The notes under the pieces are model-generated. The model was not told the origin of the DNA. It worked only from the letters and a program-made list of their open reading frames with translations, and did no database searches. A program made the translations under genes and the position numbers. A DNA stretch of 64,000 nucleotides from Limnochorda sp. LNt (GTDB lineage Bacteria > Bacillota > Limnochordia > Limnochordales > Geochordaceae): the NCBI RefSeq assembly GCF_035593265.1, contig NZ_CP141614.1, positions 2,790,001 to 2,854,000 on the forward strand, given 5' to 3'. Positions 11,477 to 46,599 of the stretch are shown here, in pieces (within the stretch, counting starts at the first letter, position 1; each line of letters begins with the position of its first letter).

Positions 11477-12418
11477 CTACCGGGCCCGGGCCTCCTTGAA
11501 GACTCGCTCGGCCCGGTAGGAGCTGCGCACCAGCGGCCCGCTGAAGACCTCCACGAAGCCCTCCTCGTATCCCCATTGCCGGTACCGGTCGAACTCGGCG
11601 GGCGTGACGTAGCGCTCCACCGGCAGATGGCTGGGGCTGGGGCGCAGGTACTGCCCCAGGGTCAGGATGTCGACCCCGACCGCTCGGAGGTCCCGCATGG
11701 CTTGTCGGATCTCCTCGTCGGTCTCGCCGAGCCCCAGCATCAGGCTCGACTTGGTCAGGACCTCGGGCCGGTACCGCTTGGCGAAGGCCAGCACCTGCAG
11801 GGTCTGGTCGTAGCCCGCCCTCGGGTCCCGCACGCGAGGTGTGAGGCGCCGCACCGTCTCCACGTTGTTGGCGAAGACGTCCAGGCCCGACTCCATGACG
11901 GTGGCCACCGCCCGCCGGTCGCCCCGGAAGTCCGGCGTCAGCGCCTCCACCCGGACCCAGGGGGCCCGTGCCTTGATGGCACGTACCGCCTGGGCGAAAT
12001 GTCCGGCCCCCCCGTCGGGCAGGTCGTCACGATCCACCGATGTCAAGACGACGTACTCCAGGCGCAGGCGCGCCACGGCCTCGGCGACCCGGTCGGGCTC
12101 GGTGGGGTCCAGCAGGCCCCGGGGGTTGCCCGTCGAGACGGCGCAAAACTTGCACGCCCGGGTGCAGACCGAGCCCAGGAGCATGAAGGTGGCGGTCCCG
12201 TGGCCCCAGCACTCCGCCACGTTGGGACAGCGTGCCTCCTGGCAGACGGTGAACAGCCCGAGCTGCTTGACCACCCCGGATACGAAGGCGTAGGTGGGCC
12301 CCCCCGGCAGGGGCACCTTGAGCCACTCGGGCTTGGGCCGGGGTCGGCCGTCGTCCAGCGGTCGCTTGCGAAGCCCTCCCGGGACCACCTTGACGCGGGG
12401 CGCCTCCATCGCGGGCAT
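11477..12418 (-). CDS. lipA: Lipoyl synthase
   Basis: LipA (313 aa) is a radical-SAM enzyme that inserts two sulfurs into protein-bound octanoyl groups to make lipoyl cofactors for 2-oxoacid dehydrogenases and the glycine cleavage system. The auxiliary-cluster motif [12 protein letters not shown] and the radical-SAM motif CTRACKFC are intact, as is the C-terminal RSSYRAE segment with the conserved Arg-Ser-Ser. Length is normal. The ATG at 12418 has GGGGAG five bases upstream. No lipB or lipoylated E2 gene is near; the upstream neighbour is the lut operon. Confidence 0.95.
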
Positions 12419-12434: not shown

Positions 12435-14657
12435 TCACGCTCTCAGGTCGTCTCGTCGCGCGGCGTCGTCGTGGCCCCCCACGAGCACCACGTGCACCTG
12501 CGACGGGCCATGCACGCCCAGCACCAGGTCGTTTTCGATGTCGGCGCTGCGGCTCGGGCCGGTCACGATGGCCACTGACGAGGGCAGCGGCTCCGCCCCC
12601 AGGCGACGGGCCAGCTCCTCCAGGCTGGCTAGCACGTCGGACTCCCGCACGACGGTGACCTGCACCGCGGGCAGCAGGCTGGCCAGGCGACCCTGGCCCG
12701 GGCCGGCCAGCAAGACGACGCTGCCGGTCTCCGCTACCGCGTATCGTCCCACGGTGATGCCCACGGCGGCCCGCCGCGCCTCCGCTCGCCAGGCCTCGAC
12801 ACGGTCCGGGCCGGGCTCGGGCACGTCGCCCCCGCCCGTCCAGTAGAGCGAGAGACCCCGTCGCCTCAGCGCCTCGGCCAGCTCGCGGGGGGCCAGGTCC
12901 AGGTCGTCGGCCATCACGATCCGACCGCCCCGTGGCGCCACCGCCTCACATAGGCTTGCCAGTGCGGCCGGCAGCCCTTGCGCGTCGCCCACCCGATGGA
13001 CGCGGCCCCCGAGCCGCTCGACCATTTGCGTGAAGTGCGCGATGCGACGGGCCAGGTCCAGGGACGCCTGGCGGCTCGCCTCGCCCCCGGGCGCGGGCGG
13101 GTCATCTCGCGGTGGGCCGTCCGGGGGCGGCGGCTCCGGCGGCGTGCCCGACCGGCCACAGCCCGCCACGGCGCGACGCCCCTCTCCGAGGAGCACCTCG
13201 CCGCGCTGCCACAGCTCCCAGAAAGACCGCTGCGACGGCTCCGGCAGGTCCCGGCCCCACGTCCAGGGCGCCAGCGGCCCGGGCAGCGACGACAGCCAGC
13301 CGTCTCCGCCCGCCGCCCCCCATCGCCGGGCCGCCCGGGCCCCCATGCGAGCCAGGCGCAGGCTGGCCCGGTAGCGCCAGGGGCTCCTCCACAGCCATGC
13401 GCCCAGCTCGAGCGCCGTCCCGAAGCCCGCCGGCCCCCGGCCGACCGAGCGAACCCTGTCGGCCCGGTGGCGCAGGATCAGCTCGTGCAAGGGGATCCCT
13501 ACGGGGCAGACGTCCGTGCAGGCCGTGCAGAGGGAGCACGCGTCGAAGGGCAGGTCCGAGGCCCGCTCCCCCTCTAGCAGCGGGGCCAGCACCACCCCGA
13601 CGGGACCGCTGTAGACGGAGCCGTAGGCGTGGCCGCCCACCTGGCGGTAGACCGGGCAGTGGTTGAGGCAGGCGCCGCACCGGATGCAGGCCAGCACCTC
13701 CCGGTAGGGCGAGGCGAGGATACGGCTGCGGCCGTGGTCCATCAGGATGACGTGCAGCTCCTCGGGGCCATCCAGCTCGCCCGGCCCCCGAGGCCCCGTC
13801 ACCAGGTGCGTGTAGACGGTGATGGCTTGCCCCGTCGCGCTGCGTGCGAGCAACTCCAGGAAGACCGGCAGGTCGGCCAGCGACGGGATCACCTTCTCGA
13901 TGCCGGCCACCACCACGTGCACCGGCGGCGCCGAGCTGACCAGGCGCCCGTTGCCCTCGTTGGTGCAGATGACCACGCTGCCCGTCTCGGCCACCACGAA
14001 GTTGGCCCCGGACACCCCGATGTCCGCCTGCAGGAAGTCCTCCCGCAACACCTGTCGTGCCACCACCGCCAGGGACGGGGTGTCCGTGGGGACGGGCCGG
14101 CCCACCAGCCGGGAGAAGAGGGCCGCTATCTCGTCCCGGCTCTTGTGGATGCAGGGCGTCACGATGTGGGCGGGGCGCTCTCCCGCCAGCTGGACGATGA
14201 ACTCACCGAGGTCGGTCTCCACCACCTCCAGGCCCGCCGCCTCCAGGCGGGCGTTGAGCTCGACCTCCTCGGTGGCCATGGACTTGGACTTGACCAACCG
14301 CCGCGCGCCCCGCCGCTTCGCGATGCCCTCCACGATGCGCGCGACGTCCTCGGCGCGGGCGGCTCGCCAGACGTGCCCGCCCCGCGCCTCGATGGACGCG
14401 GCCGCCTTGGCCACCAGCCGGTCCAGGTCGTCGAGCGACGCCATCTTGATGGCATGCGCCCGGCGGCGCAGGGCCTCGAAGTCGCCCGGGGCCCACCCCC
14501 CGGCGGCCAGCTCGGCCAGCTGGGCGAAGGCCGCCCGTCGGGCCTCCACCTTGCCGTCGGCGGTGATGCGCACGGCCTGTCGGAGCCGCTCGTCCGCCAG
14601 GGCTCGCCGGGCTCGGTCGCGAAAGCTCTCCACGCCGGGGGGTCGGGTGTGTCTCAT
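12435..14657 (-). CDS. Fused LutB-LutC L-lactate utilisation protein
   Basis: One 740-aa protein combines two subunits of the LutABC L-lactate oxidation system. Residues about 1-450 are LutB: the N-terminal domain with [13 protein letters not shown] and [22 protein letters not shown], then two [4Fe-4S] motifs, [16 protein letters not shown] and [18 protein letters not shown] Pro/Gly-rich linker ([23 protein letters not shown]) follows at about 500-530. The C-terminal 200 residues are a LutC/YkgG domain with [31 protein letters not shown] and the end segment [26 protein letters not shown]. The ATG overlaps the lutA stop and has AGGAGG upstream. A fusion is unusual; in most bacteria lutB and lutC are separate genes. 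Confidence 0.92.
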
Positions 14658-15466
14658 GACCGGCCGCCTCCTGCCGGCCGGGCCGCCGCCCCTGCCGCGG
14701 CATCGGCTCGTAGTGCCGCGGCCCCCGACGGCGGAGCCAGCAGCCCCATCCCCTCCGCCAGCAGCTCCGCCACGTGCACGAAGCGCAGGCGCAGCCCCCG
14801 CCGCCGTGCACGGCCCATCAGGTGCAGCAGGCAGGAGCCGTCGGCCGAGACCACCACGTCGGCCCCCGCCGCCCGGATGGCGTCCAGCTTGTCGTCGGCC
14901 ATGGCCACCGACACCTCGGGCGACTTGACCGCGAAAGCCCCTCCGAAGCCGCAACACCGGTCGGCGCCCTCGAAGGGCACGAGCGTCAGCCCCCGCACGC
15001 ACCTCAGGAGCCGCTCCGCCGCCCCGGCGGCGCCCAGGAGACGGCTTGCGTGGCACGAGGTATGGTAGGCGGCGGTCACGGGGCATCGGGCCCCCAGATC
15101 CTCGACCCCCAGTACCTCCGTCACGAACTGCGTGAACTCGTAGGTGCGAACGCCCAGGGCCCGGCCCTGTCGCGCCGCTGCCGGGTCACCCGCCAGGAGG
15201 GCCGAGTAGTGCTCCCGGATCATGGCCACGCAGGAGCCGGTCGGAGCCACCACGTACTCCGCGGACTCGAAGGTCCGCAGGAAATGGCGGGCCAGGGCCG
15301 CGGCCTGCAGACGCTGGCCGCTGTTGAAGTGGGCCTGGCCGCAGCAGGTCTGCTGCTCGGGGAAGTGGACGCTCACGCCCAGGTGCTCGAGGATGCGGGC
15401 CGCTCCCACCGCGGCGCGAGCGAAGAAGACGTCGTTGACACAGCCGACGAAGAAGGCGACCCGCAT
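14654..15466 (-). CDS. lutA: LutA-type (Fe-S)-binding lactate utilisation protein
   Basis: LutA (270 aa) is the CCG-domain subunit of the L-lactate utilisation complex, resembling GlpC and heterodisulfide reductase HdrB. Both cysteine-rich motifs are present (EQQTCCGQAHFNSG and ADRCCGFGGAFAVK) along with the upstream FFVGCVND and TSCHASRLLG segments. It is the first gene of the pair and overlaps lutBC by four bases, so the whole Lut activity is encoded by two genes. No lactate permease or LutR-like regulator adjoins it. An Ala/Gly-rich tail of about 30 residues is unlike the family and may be neutral. Confidence 0.92.
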   Translation of the reverse strand: MRVAFFVGCVNDVFFARAAVGAARILEHLGVSVHFPEQQTCCGQAHFNSGQRLQAAALARHFLRTFESAEYVVAPTGSCVAMIREHYSALLAGDPAAARQGRALGVRTYEFTQFVTEVLGVEDLGARCPVTAAYHTSCHASRLLGAAGAAERLLRCVRGLTLVPFEGADRCCGFGGAFAVKSPEVSVAMADDKLDAIRAAGADVVVSADGSCLLHLMGRARRRGLRLRFVHVAELLAEGMGLLAPPSGAAALRADAAAGAAARPAGGGRS

Positions 15467-15558: not shown

Positions 15559-16188
15559 TCAGTCGAACTCGGGAGGCAGCGACGGGTCGCGGTAGAGACG
15601 GTACAGGCGCCGGATCTGCTCTGCGGTGATCCGGGTCGGCGACAGCGGCGGCAGCTCCTCGACGGCGAACCAGCCCACGGCCTCGGTCTCGATGCTGGCG
15701 CGGGGCTGGCCGCCGGTCAGCTGGCAGGCGATGCAGATCTTGTAGACCGCGTAGGCCACGGGGCGGTCGTGGTGGCGGGAGTTGTCCCACACCGCGAGCA
15801 GGCGCACCGGGCGCACCACGTACCCGGCCTCCTCGGCCACCTCCCGTGCCGCCATCTCGGAGGGCGACGAGCCGACGTCGGCCCAGCCGCCAGGCAGCGA
15901 CCATCGACCGTCGGAACGCTCCTTGACCAGCAGCACGCGATCGCCGTCGAAGACCACCGACCGCACGTCCACCTTGGGGGTCGGGTAGCCGGCCTCCCCG
16001 GCGAAGAGCTCCTCCAGGCTTACGCGCTGGGCCTCGGATCCCAGCCCGCATTGGGTCGCCAGCATGTCGACCGCGATCCGGCGAAGCTCCCGGTACCGCT
16101 CCTGGTCGTAGGGGTCCGTGGCATAGGTCAGGCCCGCCTGGGCCAGCGCCTGGATGCGCTTGGCCCACCGGATCCACTGAGGCTCCAC
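15559..16188 (-). CDS. Nudix hydrolase with N-terminal HXLN-type domain
   Basis: A 209-aa Nudix enzyme. The N-terminal 60 residues (WIRWAKRIQALAQAGLTYATDPYDQERYRELRRIAVDML) match the helical domain found in hydrolases of X-linked nucleoside diphosphates, such as ADP-ribose-type pyrophosphatases. The Nudix box GWADVGSSPSEMAAREVAEEAGY has the catalytic REVAEEAG core intact. The likely substrate is ADP-ribose or a nucleotide sugar; this is inferred from the family. I start at GTG 16188, which has GGGAGGGG nine bases upstream and begins the conserved domain. Confidence 0.88.
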   Translation of the reverse strand: MEPQWIRWAKRIQALAQAGLTYATDPYDQERYRELRRIAVDMLATQCGLGSEAQRVSLEELFAGEAGYPTPKVDVRSVVFDGDRVLLVKERSDGRWSLPGGWADVGSSPSEMAAREVAEEAGYVVRPVRLLAVWDNSRHHDRPVAYAVYKICIACQLTGGQPRASIETEAVGWFAVEELPPLSPTRITAEQIRRLYRLYRDPSLPPEFD

Positions 16189-16367
16189 GCCTGCGCCCCT
16201 CCCACGACCGAGGCGCCGTCGCCTCAGCGGCGGCGCCCCGTCTTGCTTGCTCCATTGTACTCCGGGCCCGGCCTCGCCCGACGCCGCGACGCGGCTCGAG
16301 GAGGAGGAGCGTCGGCATCGTGCGAACAGCACTTGCCAATCCTGCGGGGACGGAAGGGAGCCAGGGG

Positions 16368-43619: not shown

Positions 43620-45677
43620 TCAGGGCGCCGCCGACAGGCGCTCCACCAGGAAGCGCTCCTCGGCTCCTCGGGTCTGCACGAGATGGCGGACGGCATCGGC
43701 GGCCGTCGCCTGCTGGTGGATGATGAGGCTGATGGCCTCCGCCACGGCCCTGGGGTCGTCACGCCCCGGGAAGAGCACGTTGCGGCCCACCATGGCCCCC
43801 CGGACGTTGGGGCCCTCGGCCATGCCCCGCTCGAAGTCCTCCAGCAGGCCGACCGGACTGTCGAGCACCTCGCCCCCCAGGAGCAGGATGGGGAGGGTGG
43901 TGGCCCGCGCCACCCGGTAGAAGTCGGGCACGTACGGGATCTTGAGCCACAACCGGTCGGTCGCCTCCCCGATCCCCGCGGCGACCCCCACGGCCCGGAT
44001 CATCTCCTCGGTCTCCAGGCGCACCCGGTAGCGGCCCTCGACGCGCTCGACGGGCAGCACCTCCAGGAAGACCGGCAGACCAAGTCGCCGGCAGCTGCTG
44101 GCCGCCTGGGCCACGTAGGACATGGTCTGGATGGAGTAGCGGGAGTAGGGGCCCGGGTCGATGCGAAGCAGGAGCTTGCCCGCATCCAGCCCCCGCGCCT
44201 GAATGGCCTCGGGCGTGAAGGCCGTCAGGCGGTCCTCCATCTCGTACTCCACCCCGGCCAGGCCGGAGCGGTTCATGGAGCCCACGATCAGGCGCCCGTC
44301 CAGCAACCCCTGGTGCCCGTGCTGCTTGACCAGCCAGTCGACCAGGAGGAGCTCATCGACGACGTCGGGGGTCGCCATGACGCCGTCGACGAGGGGGCTG
44401 CTCAGCACACGCAGGATGCGGCCCAGGTACTCCAGGCGGTCGCCGAGGGCCACCGGATCGTCGCCGGCCGACGTGACGCGCCGTGCGGGGTGGTCGGCGG
44501 CCAGCACCAGCAGCCTGCCGTCGGCGGGGGTCAGGCCATCGGGGCGGCGACGGGCCCGGGCGGCCTCCTCCACGCGCTCGGCTCGTCGCACCCGGCTCTC
44601 GGCCAGCACCTGCCACAGCTCGTCCGTGAAGAACCGGCGCGTGTGCCAGTAGAACGAGCCCAGGGTGTAGTTGACGTCCAGTCGCTCCCGGGCGACGTCG
44701 TAGAGGGCACGGGTGCTCGTCAACACCGCCTCCGACAGCTCGCCCGGACGAGGCACGACCTCGAGCCCGATGGGGCCCTGGTAGCCGACGTCGACCAGCG
44801 CCGACAGGAAGCCCGCCAGCTGCTCCTCGCCGATGGCGCTGGCGGGATAGTCGAGCCGAGGGTGGCTGTCGCCGTACAGAGGATCTGCCGGATCCAGCAC
44901 CGCGCTGCCGATGTGCACGTGGACCAGGAACGGCGCGAGCAGCCGGATCGCGTCGGGCGTCTCCTCCTCGTCGCCGGGCCCCTTGAGCAGCCGCATGTGG
45001 GAGAGGTCGTAGAGCAGCCCGAAGTTGAAGTGGCCCAGATGGGCGCGCACGATCCGAGCCACGGCCAGCGCCTCGGTCGACGGGCCGATGAGCATGTTGC
45101 GGAAGCCGGGCTCGGTGCGGCGGTCGAAGCTCTCCAGCACTACCCACAGGGGCTCGCGCCCGAGGGCCTCGGCCCGCTCCCGGGCGTACCGGCAGATCTC
45201 GGCCAGGGACCGCACCAGGGCTTCGGTGGCCTCCTGACGCAGCCGGTTGCCCGGCGAGTCGCCCGGGTCGCGGCCGCTGAGCAGGCTCAACGAGACCGCC
45301 CCCAGCTCGTACGCCTCGTCGACGCAGCGCAGGAGCCGCTCCGCGGCCTGCCGCCGGTGGACCTCGTTGGCACTGGCGATGTCGGTGGGTGGGATCCATC
45401 GCTCCTCGTTGACGAGCTGCACGGGCTGCGCCCCGTAGTAGAGGCGTTTGCCGTAGCGGATAGCCATCTCGCGCACCTGCCGGCGCACGTCCGGGTCCTT
45501 GATGCGGGTCACCTCGATGCCGCCGAAGTAGGGATCCCGCAGCACCTGCTCGACGGTGCGCAGCACGTACGAGGCGGGGGCCTCTCCCCGCGCCACCGAC
45601 CGGGTGCTCCCCGGACCGGGAAAGACCATCCAGTGCACGACGGTCACCGGGTTGCGCTCCAACGCCACGAGTGTCAC
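43620..45677 (-). CDS. Two-barrel fusion: sugar-phosphate isomerase-like plus Cgl0159-like aldolase
   Basis: A 685-aa protein joining two TIM barrels. Residues about 1-375 resemble xylose isomerase-like sugar isomerases/epimerases (IolE/IolI group): FGGIEVTRIKDPD, WVVLESFDRRTEPGFRNMLIGPS, FGLLYDLSHMRLL, VHVHIGSAVLDPADPLYG and GLEVVPRPGELSEAVL. After RRRPDGLTP, residues about 395-685 resemble the Cgl0159-type beta/alpha barrel found with inositol genes in actinobacteria (RLLVLAADHPARRVTSAGDD, KLLLRIDPGPYSRYSIQTMSYVAQAAS, LLGGEVLDSPVGLLEDFERGMAEGPNVRGAMVGRNVLFPG), a likely aldolase. It lies between iolB and the secreted unknown. Start GTG 45677; GTG 45668 is better spaced from GGAGAGG. Confidence 0.82.
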   Translation of the reverse strand: MTLVALERNPVTVVHWMVFPGPGSTRSVARGEAPASYVLRTVEQVLRDPYFGGIEVTRIKDPDVRRQVREMAIRYGKRLYYGAQPVQLVNEERWIPPTDIASANEVHRRQAAERLLRCVDEAYELGAVSLSLLSGRDPGDSPGNRLRQEATEALVRSLAEICRYARERAEALGREPLWVVLESFDRRTEPGFRNMLIGPSTEALAVARIVRAHLGHFNFGLLYDLSHMRLLKGPGDEEETPDAIRLLAPFLVHVHIGSAVLDPADPLYGDSHPRLDYPASAIGEEQLAGFLSALVDVGYQGPIGLEVVPRPGELSEAVLTSTRALYDVARERLDVNYTLGSFYWHTRRFFTDELWQVLAESRVRRAERVEEAARARRRPDGLTPADGRLLVLAADHPARRVTSAGDDPVALGDRLEYLGRILRVLSSPLVDGVMATPDVVDELLLVDWLVKQHGHQGLLDGRLIVGSMNRSGLAGVEYEMEDRLTAFTPEAIQARGLDAGKLLLRIDPGPYSRYSIQTMSYVAQAASSCRRLGLPVFLEVLPVERVEGRYRVRLETEEMIRAVGVAAGIGEATDRLWLKIPYVPDFYRVARATTLPILLLGGEVLDSPVGLLEDFERGMAEGPNVRGAMVGRNVLFPGRDDPRAVAEAISLIIHQQATAADAVRHLVQTRGAEERFLVERLSAAP

Positions 45678-45699
45678 CTCTCCTGCTGCGATGCACCGG

Positions 45700-46599
45700 T
45701 CACGACTCCGGAGACCATTCGATGGCGACTCGGTCTCTCCATGCTTCGCCCCGTGAGATCCCGCTCAATTCCACGAAGAGCTTGCCTTCGTAGTAACCGA
45801 GGCTGCGCGCCATCTCCAGGAGCGCCCGCGGCTTGGTGGTAGCCCAGGCGTAGCCCTCTCGACGCTCCTTCTCGATCTCCCGGATGTCGCGCTTGACGAC
45901 TCCGTCACGGCCCGAGAAGATCGGCTCGTTGGTTCGCAGGTCGTAGAAGCGATACCAGATGACGCTGCCAGGCTCGTGGTAGAAGTACTGCTCCTGGGGG
46001 TCCCGTCGCACGTACCTGGTATCCGGCACCTTGGCTCGCTCGAACCACGCCAGAGCGCCACGTATGGCCTCTTGAATCTCTGCCGACGGAGACGGCTCCG
46101 CTCCATCCCACGGCCGCTTGTACTGCTCCTCCATGCCCTTGCTCCAACCGCCGTGGAGTTGCCATGTCAGAAGTGCGTCGGCCTGCTGGATGTCGCGGGT
46201 CAGGTCCCCCGTTTGATACGTGCCGGTGTACCACGGGATCGACGAGAGATCTCGGGGCGGCGGGGGCAGGGCACCGATCTTTAGGGTAACGATGGTCGCT
46301 CCGTCTCGATCCACCACCGAGCGATGGAGGACGGGCACCTCGACGAAGCCGGGATCGGGCTGCTGGGTTCGCAACACGCCGAACCACGGTGTGGTCGGCG
46401 CCTGTACGGTGATTGCGTGTGAGTCGAGACCATCGACCACGCCCTCCAGGACAAGTTCGATGGTCTCCGCCCCGGTGCGCGAGGCGCTCACGATCCGGGG
46501 CCCCCCGTCGGTTGTGGCCAGCGCTGCTGGCGCAGAGACCCCGCTCACCAGCAGTGCCGACACGGCCACGACACAGAGCCACCTCGCAACCGCACGCAT
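45700..46599 (-). CDS. Secreted protein of unknown function
   Basis: I do not recognise this 299-aa protein. It has a clear signal peptide (RWLCVVAVSALLVSGVSAPAALA), a beta-rich N-terminal region (IVSASRTGAETIELVLEGVVDGLDSHAITVQ), then a charged, Trp/Tyr-rich C-terminal half with WYTGTYQTGDLTRDIQQADALLTWQLHGGWS and GSVIWYRFYDLRTNEPIFSGRDG. No catalytic motif is obvious. GGGAGG stands seven bases before the ATG, so it is well translated. Its place in a sugar-uptake and GH4 operon suggests binding or processing of the same extracellular carbohydrate. Confidence 0.75.
   Translation of the reverse strand: MRAVARWLCVVAVSALLVSGVSAPAALATTDGGPRIVSASRTGAETIELVLEGVVDGLDSHAITVQAPTTPWFGVLRTQQPDPGFVEVPVLHRSVVDRDGATIVTLKIGALPPPPRDLSSIPWYTGTYQTGDLTRDIQQADALLTWQLHGGWSKGMEEQYKRPWDGAEPSPSAEIQEAIRGALAWFERAKVPDTRYVRRDPQEQYFYHEPGSVIWYRFYDLRTNEPIFSGRDGVVKRDIREIEKERREGYAWATTKPRALLEMARSLGYYEGKLFVELSGISRGEAWRDRVAIEWSPES

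Follow-up and report, generated by a model that had tools for sequence, protein, structure and literature searches.

A genuine LutB-LutC fusion gives a two-gene LutABC set in a Limnochordales genome

The lutA and lutBC genes described here form a two-gene LutABC set, arising through a genuine fusion of LutB with LutC. They lie on the minus strand of the window, that is, the whole stretch of 64,000 nucleotides that was analysed. Because LutB and LutC are encoded by one open reading frame (ORF), the locus is a variant and not the canonical three-gene LutABC/LldEFG. The original prediction of a 740-residue LutB-LutC fusion overlapped by lutA was exact in its coordinates, two LUD domains and Fer4_8 being found in a single ORF and an ATGA joining the two genes. 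The features of the locus are as follows.

15559-16332: Nudix hydrolase gene, before lutA
14654-15466, minus strand: lutA, 270 aa, two CCG cysteine-rich domains (PF02754, 112 bits, 2 stretches)
14654-14657, minus strand: ATGA shared by the lutA stop and the lutBC start, read from the sequence
12435-14657, minus strand: lutBC, one ORF, 740 aa plus stop
13740-14411, minus strand: LUD domain of the LutB part, residues 83-306 (Pfam, over cut-off)
13494-13697, minus strand: two 4Fe-4S cysteine motifs, Fer4_8, residues 321-388 (Pfam)
13203-13400, minus strand: weak LutB_C-like C-terminal part of LutB, residues 420-485 (20.7 bits against a cut-off of 26.8)
13080-13193, minus strand: proline-rich linker, residues 489-526, predicted disordered (pLDDT <50), variable
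12480-13043, minus strand: second LUD domain, the LutC part (111 bits, cut-off 22.6; match to 2G40)
12504-12560, minus strand: LutC signature, residues 700-718 (H716 corresponds to H201 of 2G40)
11477-12418, minus strand: radical-SAM protein, lipoyl synthase-like (lipA), 16 nt downstream of lutBC

The 740-residue protein thus reads, from its N-terminus, LUD, two 4Fe-4S motifs, a weak LutB_C-like region that stays below the Pfam threshold, linker and LUD. Its LutB part passes the equivalog cut-off of TIGR00273 (LutB/LldF) over residues 22-472, with 480 bits against 444.8, and its second LUD domain carries the LutC signature GPSR(T/S)ADIE...(V/A)HGP. Beyond the two domains of lutBC, PF02589 (LUD) had no match in the 3,019,339-base single-contig genome, which bears out the prediction that the system is reduced to two genes. 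Membership of the lipA-like neighbour in the lutA-lutBC system was unsupported by any test. The lipA-like and Nudix genes also flank the fusion in G001 (L143), and no match to them was found in the flanks retrieved from G002 and G003. In the window, Rfam and tRNA searches each gave 0 matches. Elsewhere in the window, a 714-residue open frame (43620-45764, minus strand) combines AP_endonuc_2 (xylose-isomerase-like) and Cgl0159-like domains and is itself a possible two-gene fusion.

The frame of lutBC is continuous. GC3 stays between 0.81 and 0.97 in every interval along the ORF, the linker included, and neither a stop nor a frameshift interrupts it. A single uninterrupted lutBC ORF is present in all four genomes of the family, G000 and G001 belonging to one genus and G002 and G003 to another. 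Compared with G001, differences are greatest at third positions (0.48-0.61). Amino-acid identity to G001 is 71% in LutB, 38% in residues 486-545, the linker region, and 55% in LutC; the corresponding values for G002 are 63%, 29% and 47%. The codon pattern and the identity profile across the family together show a frame that is maintained and a linker that drifts. The linker had been described as proline-rich. This is so at residues ~489-526 in the window genome, but the poor conservation of the region means that the term, judged from these alignments, is suited to this linker and not to LutB-LutC linkers generally. One '1 TAG' in G001, considered as an internal stop, proved to be the ordinary stop that ends a shorter LutC tail (833-residue ORF).

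It is scarcely conceivable that lutBC is an assembly or frame error merging two genes. Artefacts of this kind do occur, a run of N having produced one false fusion elsewhere (L080, see below), but the finding of the same ORF in four of four genomes from two genera counts as refuting a frame error, the codon-position signal is continuous across lutBC and the window genome is a single contig. The check for a frame error proposed with the original prediction therefore revealed none. A second lutA-lutBC copy is present in G001 (L146, contig C20), interrupted inside LutB by the end of the contig. The G001 assembly is a fragmented one, with 800 contigs and 4% contamination, so that this copy may derive from another strain.

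The lutBC product was modelled as a single chain with AlphaFold2 from 32 aligned rows. The model has a mean pLDDT of 84.6 and a pTM of 0.85, with residues 489-526 below 50. Foldseek and VIA-align 2 showed that it resembles two entries: LutB as placed in 9a6l, which is an integrative model of LutA with LutB, and the crystal structure of LutC in 2G40. With VIA-align 2, residues 8-488 superimpose on LutB of 9a6l with Z 37.8 and rmsd 5.3 over 458 aligned residues, and residues 532-727 on 2G40 with Z 14.9 and rmsd 2.4 over 160. In a separate alignment with 2G40 the putative catalytic H201 corresponds to H716, and R204, which belongs to a trio of putative active-site residues, to S719; the 2G40 numbering carries a 12-residue offset deduced from the residues named in the accessible part of PMC3924224. 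A high pTM for one chain is, for a predicted model, no proof by itself of a LutB-LutC interface.

Profile searches, suggested as a check on the fusion, brought up further cases in a second Bacillota genus (g35), in the G330 family and in the family around G633. A fusion was called where both domains lay within one frame. Within the order, 8 of 14 genomes had a LUD match: the four from this family carry the fusion, lutB and lutC are distinct neighbours in G004, G005 and G012, and G010 shows a lutB alone, at the end of a contig. The two genes are also separate in G020, from another family of the class. Separate adjacent lutB and lutC in sister families point to the fusion as the derived state. 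Across the phylum, 141 of the 299 genomes sampled had a LUD match, and among the matches listed the common two-gene form is LutB-LutA with a separate LutC. LutB-LutC fusions were found in g35 (4/4 genomes) and in the G330 family of Bacillota MAGs, where five of six genomes have a LUD match and all five are fused. In the Pseudomonadota family around G633, 36 of 69 genomes had a match and at least six are fused according to the ORFs inspected, one of these, G947, reaching the contig end ahead of the LutC signature; possible further cases are G941 and G938.

Among 349 genomes sampled from Pseudomonadota, 54 had a match, and among the matches listed both domains stood in one frame only in G633. 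In the sample of the phylum of G330, 55 of 199 genomes had a match and six are true fusions (G330, G340, G387, G426, G515 and G522), all being genomes already counted under the same or other handles. Long open frames surround LutC in the high-GC genomes G792 (714), G546 (1045) and G391 (914), with LutB in a different frame, so that the length of an open frame alone was not taken as proof. A LutC-LutB-LutA triple fusion was also rejected: the 871-residue ORF of L080 (G159:C40) passes through a run of N and is an artefact, and in the relatives G087 and G125 the genes overlap but are separate. Six-frame scans across N-runs can generate false fusions, the case seen here lying between LutC and LutB-LutA. 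On plasmids, 384 records matched, and among the 30 matches listed none was recognised as a fusion by annotation: 25 have two differently named features, four are unannotated (H2, H4, H5, H7) and the remaining one, H6, is annotated 'lactate utilization protein (x2)'.

Contig C1 of G218 carries a fused gene twice (L076 and L077), with equal scores and near opposite contig ends. This placement would be expected of a circular assembly whose overlap of ~31 kb had been left untrimmed, and the gene was counted once. In G945 (L168) and G947 (L169), RHSGESRNL...DPGFRRGDEEGG repeats belong to an in-frame stretch that lies within the LUD domain of LutC, immediately ahead of the signature; the stretch may be a translated interspersed repeat element. 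Overall, the LutB-LutC fusion is an uncommon but recurrent architecture of an ordinary family.

In a tree of LutB (52 rows), the 15 LutB-LutA fusions form one clade with a support of 100/100. The Pseudomonadota LutB-LutC fusions are nested in Pseudomonadota, beside a separate-gene relative, and those of Bacillota fall into three clades, each well supported. A single origin of all LutB-LutC fusions is rejected (AU p 2.33e-25, 20 rows against 32), and one origin for the three Bacillota groups is not (AU p 0.161). L146 carries the script label 'separate' due only to the contig end inside its LutB, and the tree without it needs 3 label changes. By this tree, LutB and LutC were fused at least twice independently, perhaps up to four times.

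The N-terminus of LutC was compared between free and fused forms. An N-terminal helix of the type sREaILArIRarL is present by pattern in 14 of 15 free LutC proteins, the exception being L142; as the motif was defined on this very set, the count is partly so by construction. In a hold-out of 28 loci (27 LutC rows), the profile matched all eight free LutC of Pseudomonadota, including 5/5 independent ones (8.4-13.9 bits) that remain after exclusion of L158, L164 and L166, which come from training-set genomes. Among the LutB-LutC fusions the helix was found in 0 of 19 by pattern, with a best profile score of 1.3 bits, the 19 being relatives within four groups and not independent cases. This absence is a new observation of the present analysis. 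In g1, the residues EVLLG... are a possible degenerate remnant of the helix.

A docking role for the helix was inferred from a passage of PMC10090944, in which the predicted B. subtilis model places the N-terminal region of LutC on LutB. We propose that in the fusions tethering makes the docking helix of free LutC unnecessary, and that the helix is missing for this reason. In its full form, the proposal is that free LutC docks on LutB through this amphipathic helix and that each fusion, of at least two origins, has swapped it for a variable disordered tether; we regard this as conceivable but somewhat doubtful. LutC partners of LutB-LutA also lack the helix: the pattern matched 1 of 15 (L043, inside the LUD domain) and 0 of 19 in a second set with overlapping genomes. 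Helix loss is therefore not specific to LutB-LutC fusions, which weakens the tether argument. If the proposal holds, the fusions would be natural tethering experiments, LutC would need to be held on LutB in order to act, and the helix would serve for nothing else.

We consider that the locus probably encodes a flavin-free iron-sulphur 2-hydroxyacid (L-lactate) dehydrogenase of the LutABC (LldEFG) type, with LutB and LutC as one polypeptide. The electrons of LutABC are thought to pass from lactate to LutB Fe-S, then to the LutA CCG motifs and menaquinone (PMC9888536, in its accessible part, citing Taylor and Kelly 2019). In the present system, the C-terminal LUD domain would be kept beside the LUD/Fe-S part of LutB by the flexible tether of ~40 residues, the substrate would be oxidised at the LUD domain or domains, and the electrons would travel from the LutB Fe-S clusters via the CCG clusters of LutA to menaquinone. 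The fusion would set LutB and LutC at 1:1, and the ATGA overlap would keep the production of LutA in step with that of LutBC. The change of R204 to S719 and the sub-threshold LutB_C region were counted against this reading.

The LutC half might instead be a passenger without function, the chemistry being done by LutA and LutB. LutC does evolve faster than LutB, as the identities to G001 and G002 given above indicate, R204 is changed and the N-terminal part of LutC is truncated in the G330 family. But ten signature residues, namely G700, P701, S702, D706, I707, E708, G714, H716, G717 and P718, are invariant in 10/10 aligned fusions, including the equivalent of H201, and the fold model is confident. 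A passenger role is improbable on these grounds. The LutB cysteines C324/327/330/334 and C377/380/384 are likewise invariant in the alignment of ten fusions.

The name 'lactate utilisation', given in the original prediction, fits by homology (TIGR00273 and the LutC signature) but is overstated as a description of physiology. The host bacterium (genome G000) is heat-loving and is likely, by inference, Geochorda subterranea (LN). According to the accessible part of PMC11456536, LN and L945, the two cultured species of the family, did not use lactate as electron donor when tested with fumarate, although lactate dehydrogenase is said there to be present in both genomes. PMC11456536, in the same part, covers three closed Limnochordales genomes and gives a GC content of 70.96%, with which the 70-73% of the window agrees; it reports the Calvin cycle as missing in LN and present in L945, MAG Bu05 and L. 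pilosa. In keeping with that prediction, PF00016 is absent from G000 and present in G002, G003 and G005; it is also present, with a weaker match, in G001.

The PF02652 lactate permease had 0 matches in the window's genome in a search that was positive in 4 of 14 control genomes, the association of such a permease with LutABC being frequent but not obligatory. No lactate genes were seen among the neighbouring ORFs inspected beside lutA-lutBC. The lactate-negative phenotype, reported for the likely host as for its cultured sister species, the missing permease and the missing gene context were all counted against the dehydrogenase reading. A fair contender, though one we do not favour, is that the fusion is real and that the system serves re-oxidation of lactate made in the cell or oxidation of another 2-hydroxyacid, not growth on lactate. 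The phenotype, the missing permease and the lack of lactate genes nearby agree with it; set against it are a LutB that exceeds the TIGR00273 cut-off, an intact LutC signature, published growth tests under few conditions and a permease search made with the PF02652 family alone. A LutABC-type dehydrogenase remains the preferred reading, and its natural substrate here may be something other than imported lactate, namely lactate formed internally or a different 2-hydroxyacid. The genes, set beside the published lactate-negative phenotype, pose a testable physiological question.

The fusion had been put forward as evidence that LutC works directly with LutB. Its recurrence fits this idea, but a LutA-LutB-LutC complex of B. 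subtilis is already supported by cross-links (LutA-LutB), co-fractionation (LutB-LutC) and AlphaFold in the accessible text of PMC10090944; the fusion is added support and not the first evidence. What each of LutA, LutB and LutC does precisely is, according to the available passages of PMC3924224, unclear. A single-chain LutBC makes the LutB-LutC interface, and the need for LutC in catalysis, testable without co-expression. LutB-LutA fusions are published (PMC9888536 and PMC5910564, and as LldH in PMC4481167, each from its accessible portion). The refuting case named with the original prediction, many unrelated taxa already described, applies as far as occurrence goes: the LutB-LutC fusion occurs in at least four taxonomic groups with at least two origins. 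No description of it was found in the literature searched, subscription papers being outside its scope. The words 'fusion' and 'fused' are absent from the text available of PMC3924224, the LUD paper, where the architecture is possibly drawn in the domain figure. For annotators, an ORF of ~650-1000 aa with LUD-Fer4 may be LutB-LutC and not the better-known LutB-LutA.

Compared with LutABC of B. subtilis and LldEFG of Shewanella, the locus shares LutA with two CCG domains, LutB with LUD and two 4Fe-4S motifs, the LUD domain of LutC and the order A-B-C. It differs in that B and C are one polypeptide where those systems have three separate subunits, in the absence of the free-LutC helix and in having no PF02652 permease. 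LutC of Deinococcus radiodurans (2G40) shares the LUD fold and the conserved histidine; it is free-standing, is described as a dimer in the accessible part of PMC3924224 and has R204 in place of S719. Closest in gene number is the LdhH, Lut[BA] or DVU3033 type (NF045670; PMC4481167 and PMC9888536, as far as accessible), likewise two-gene by fusion and likewise with a LutC without the N-terminal helix. That type, however, joins B to A and leaves LutC separate, whereas the window locus joins B to C and leaves LutA separate; accordingly lutBC reaches 449.5 bits on NF045670 (LdhH, LutB-LutA) against a cut-off of 800, over profile positions 2-456 of 706 only. The fusions of g35, the G330 family and the G633 family have the same order, LUD-Fer4-(LutB_C)-linker-LUD, in one ORF with LutA separate. 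Their linkers differ from that of the window in length and sequence, the N-terminal half of LutC is reduced in the G330 family, and G945 and G947 have an extra stretch within the LutC part.
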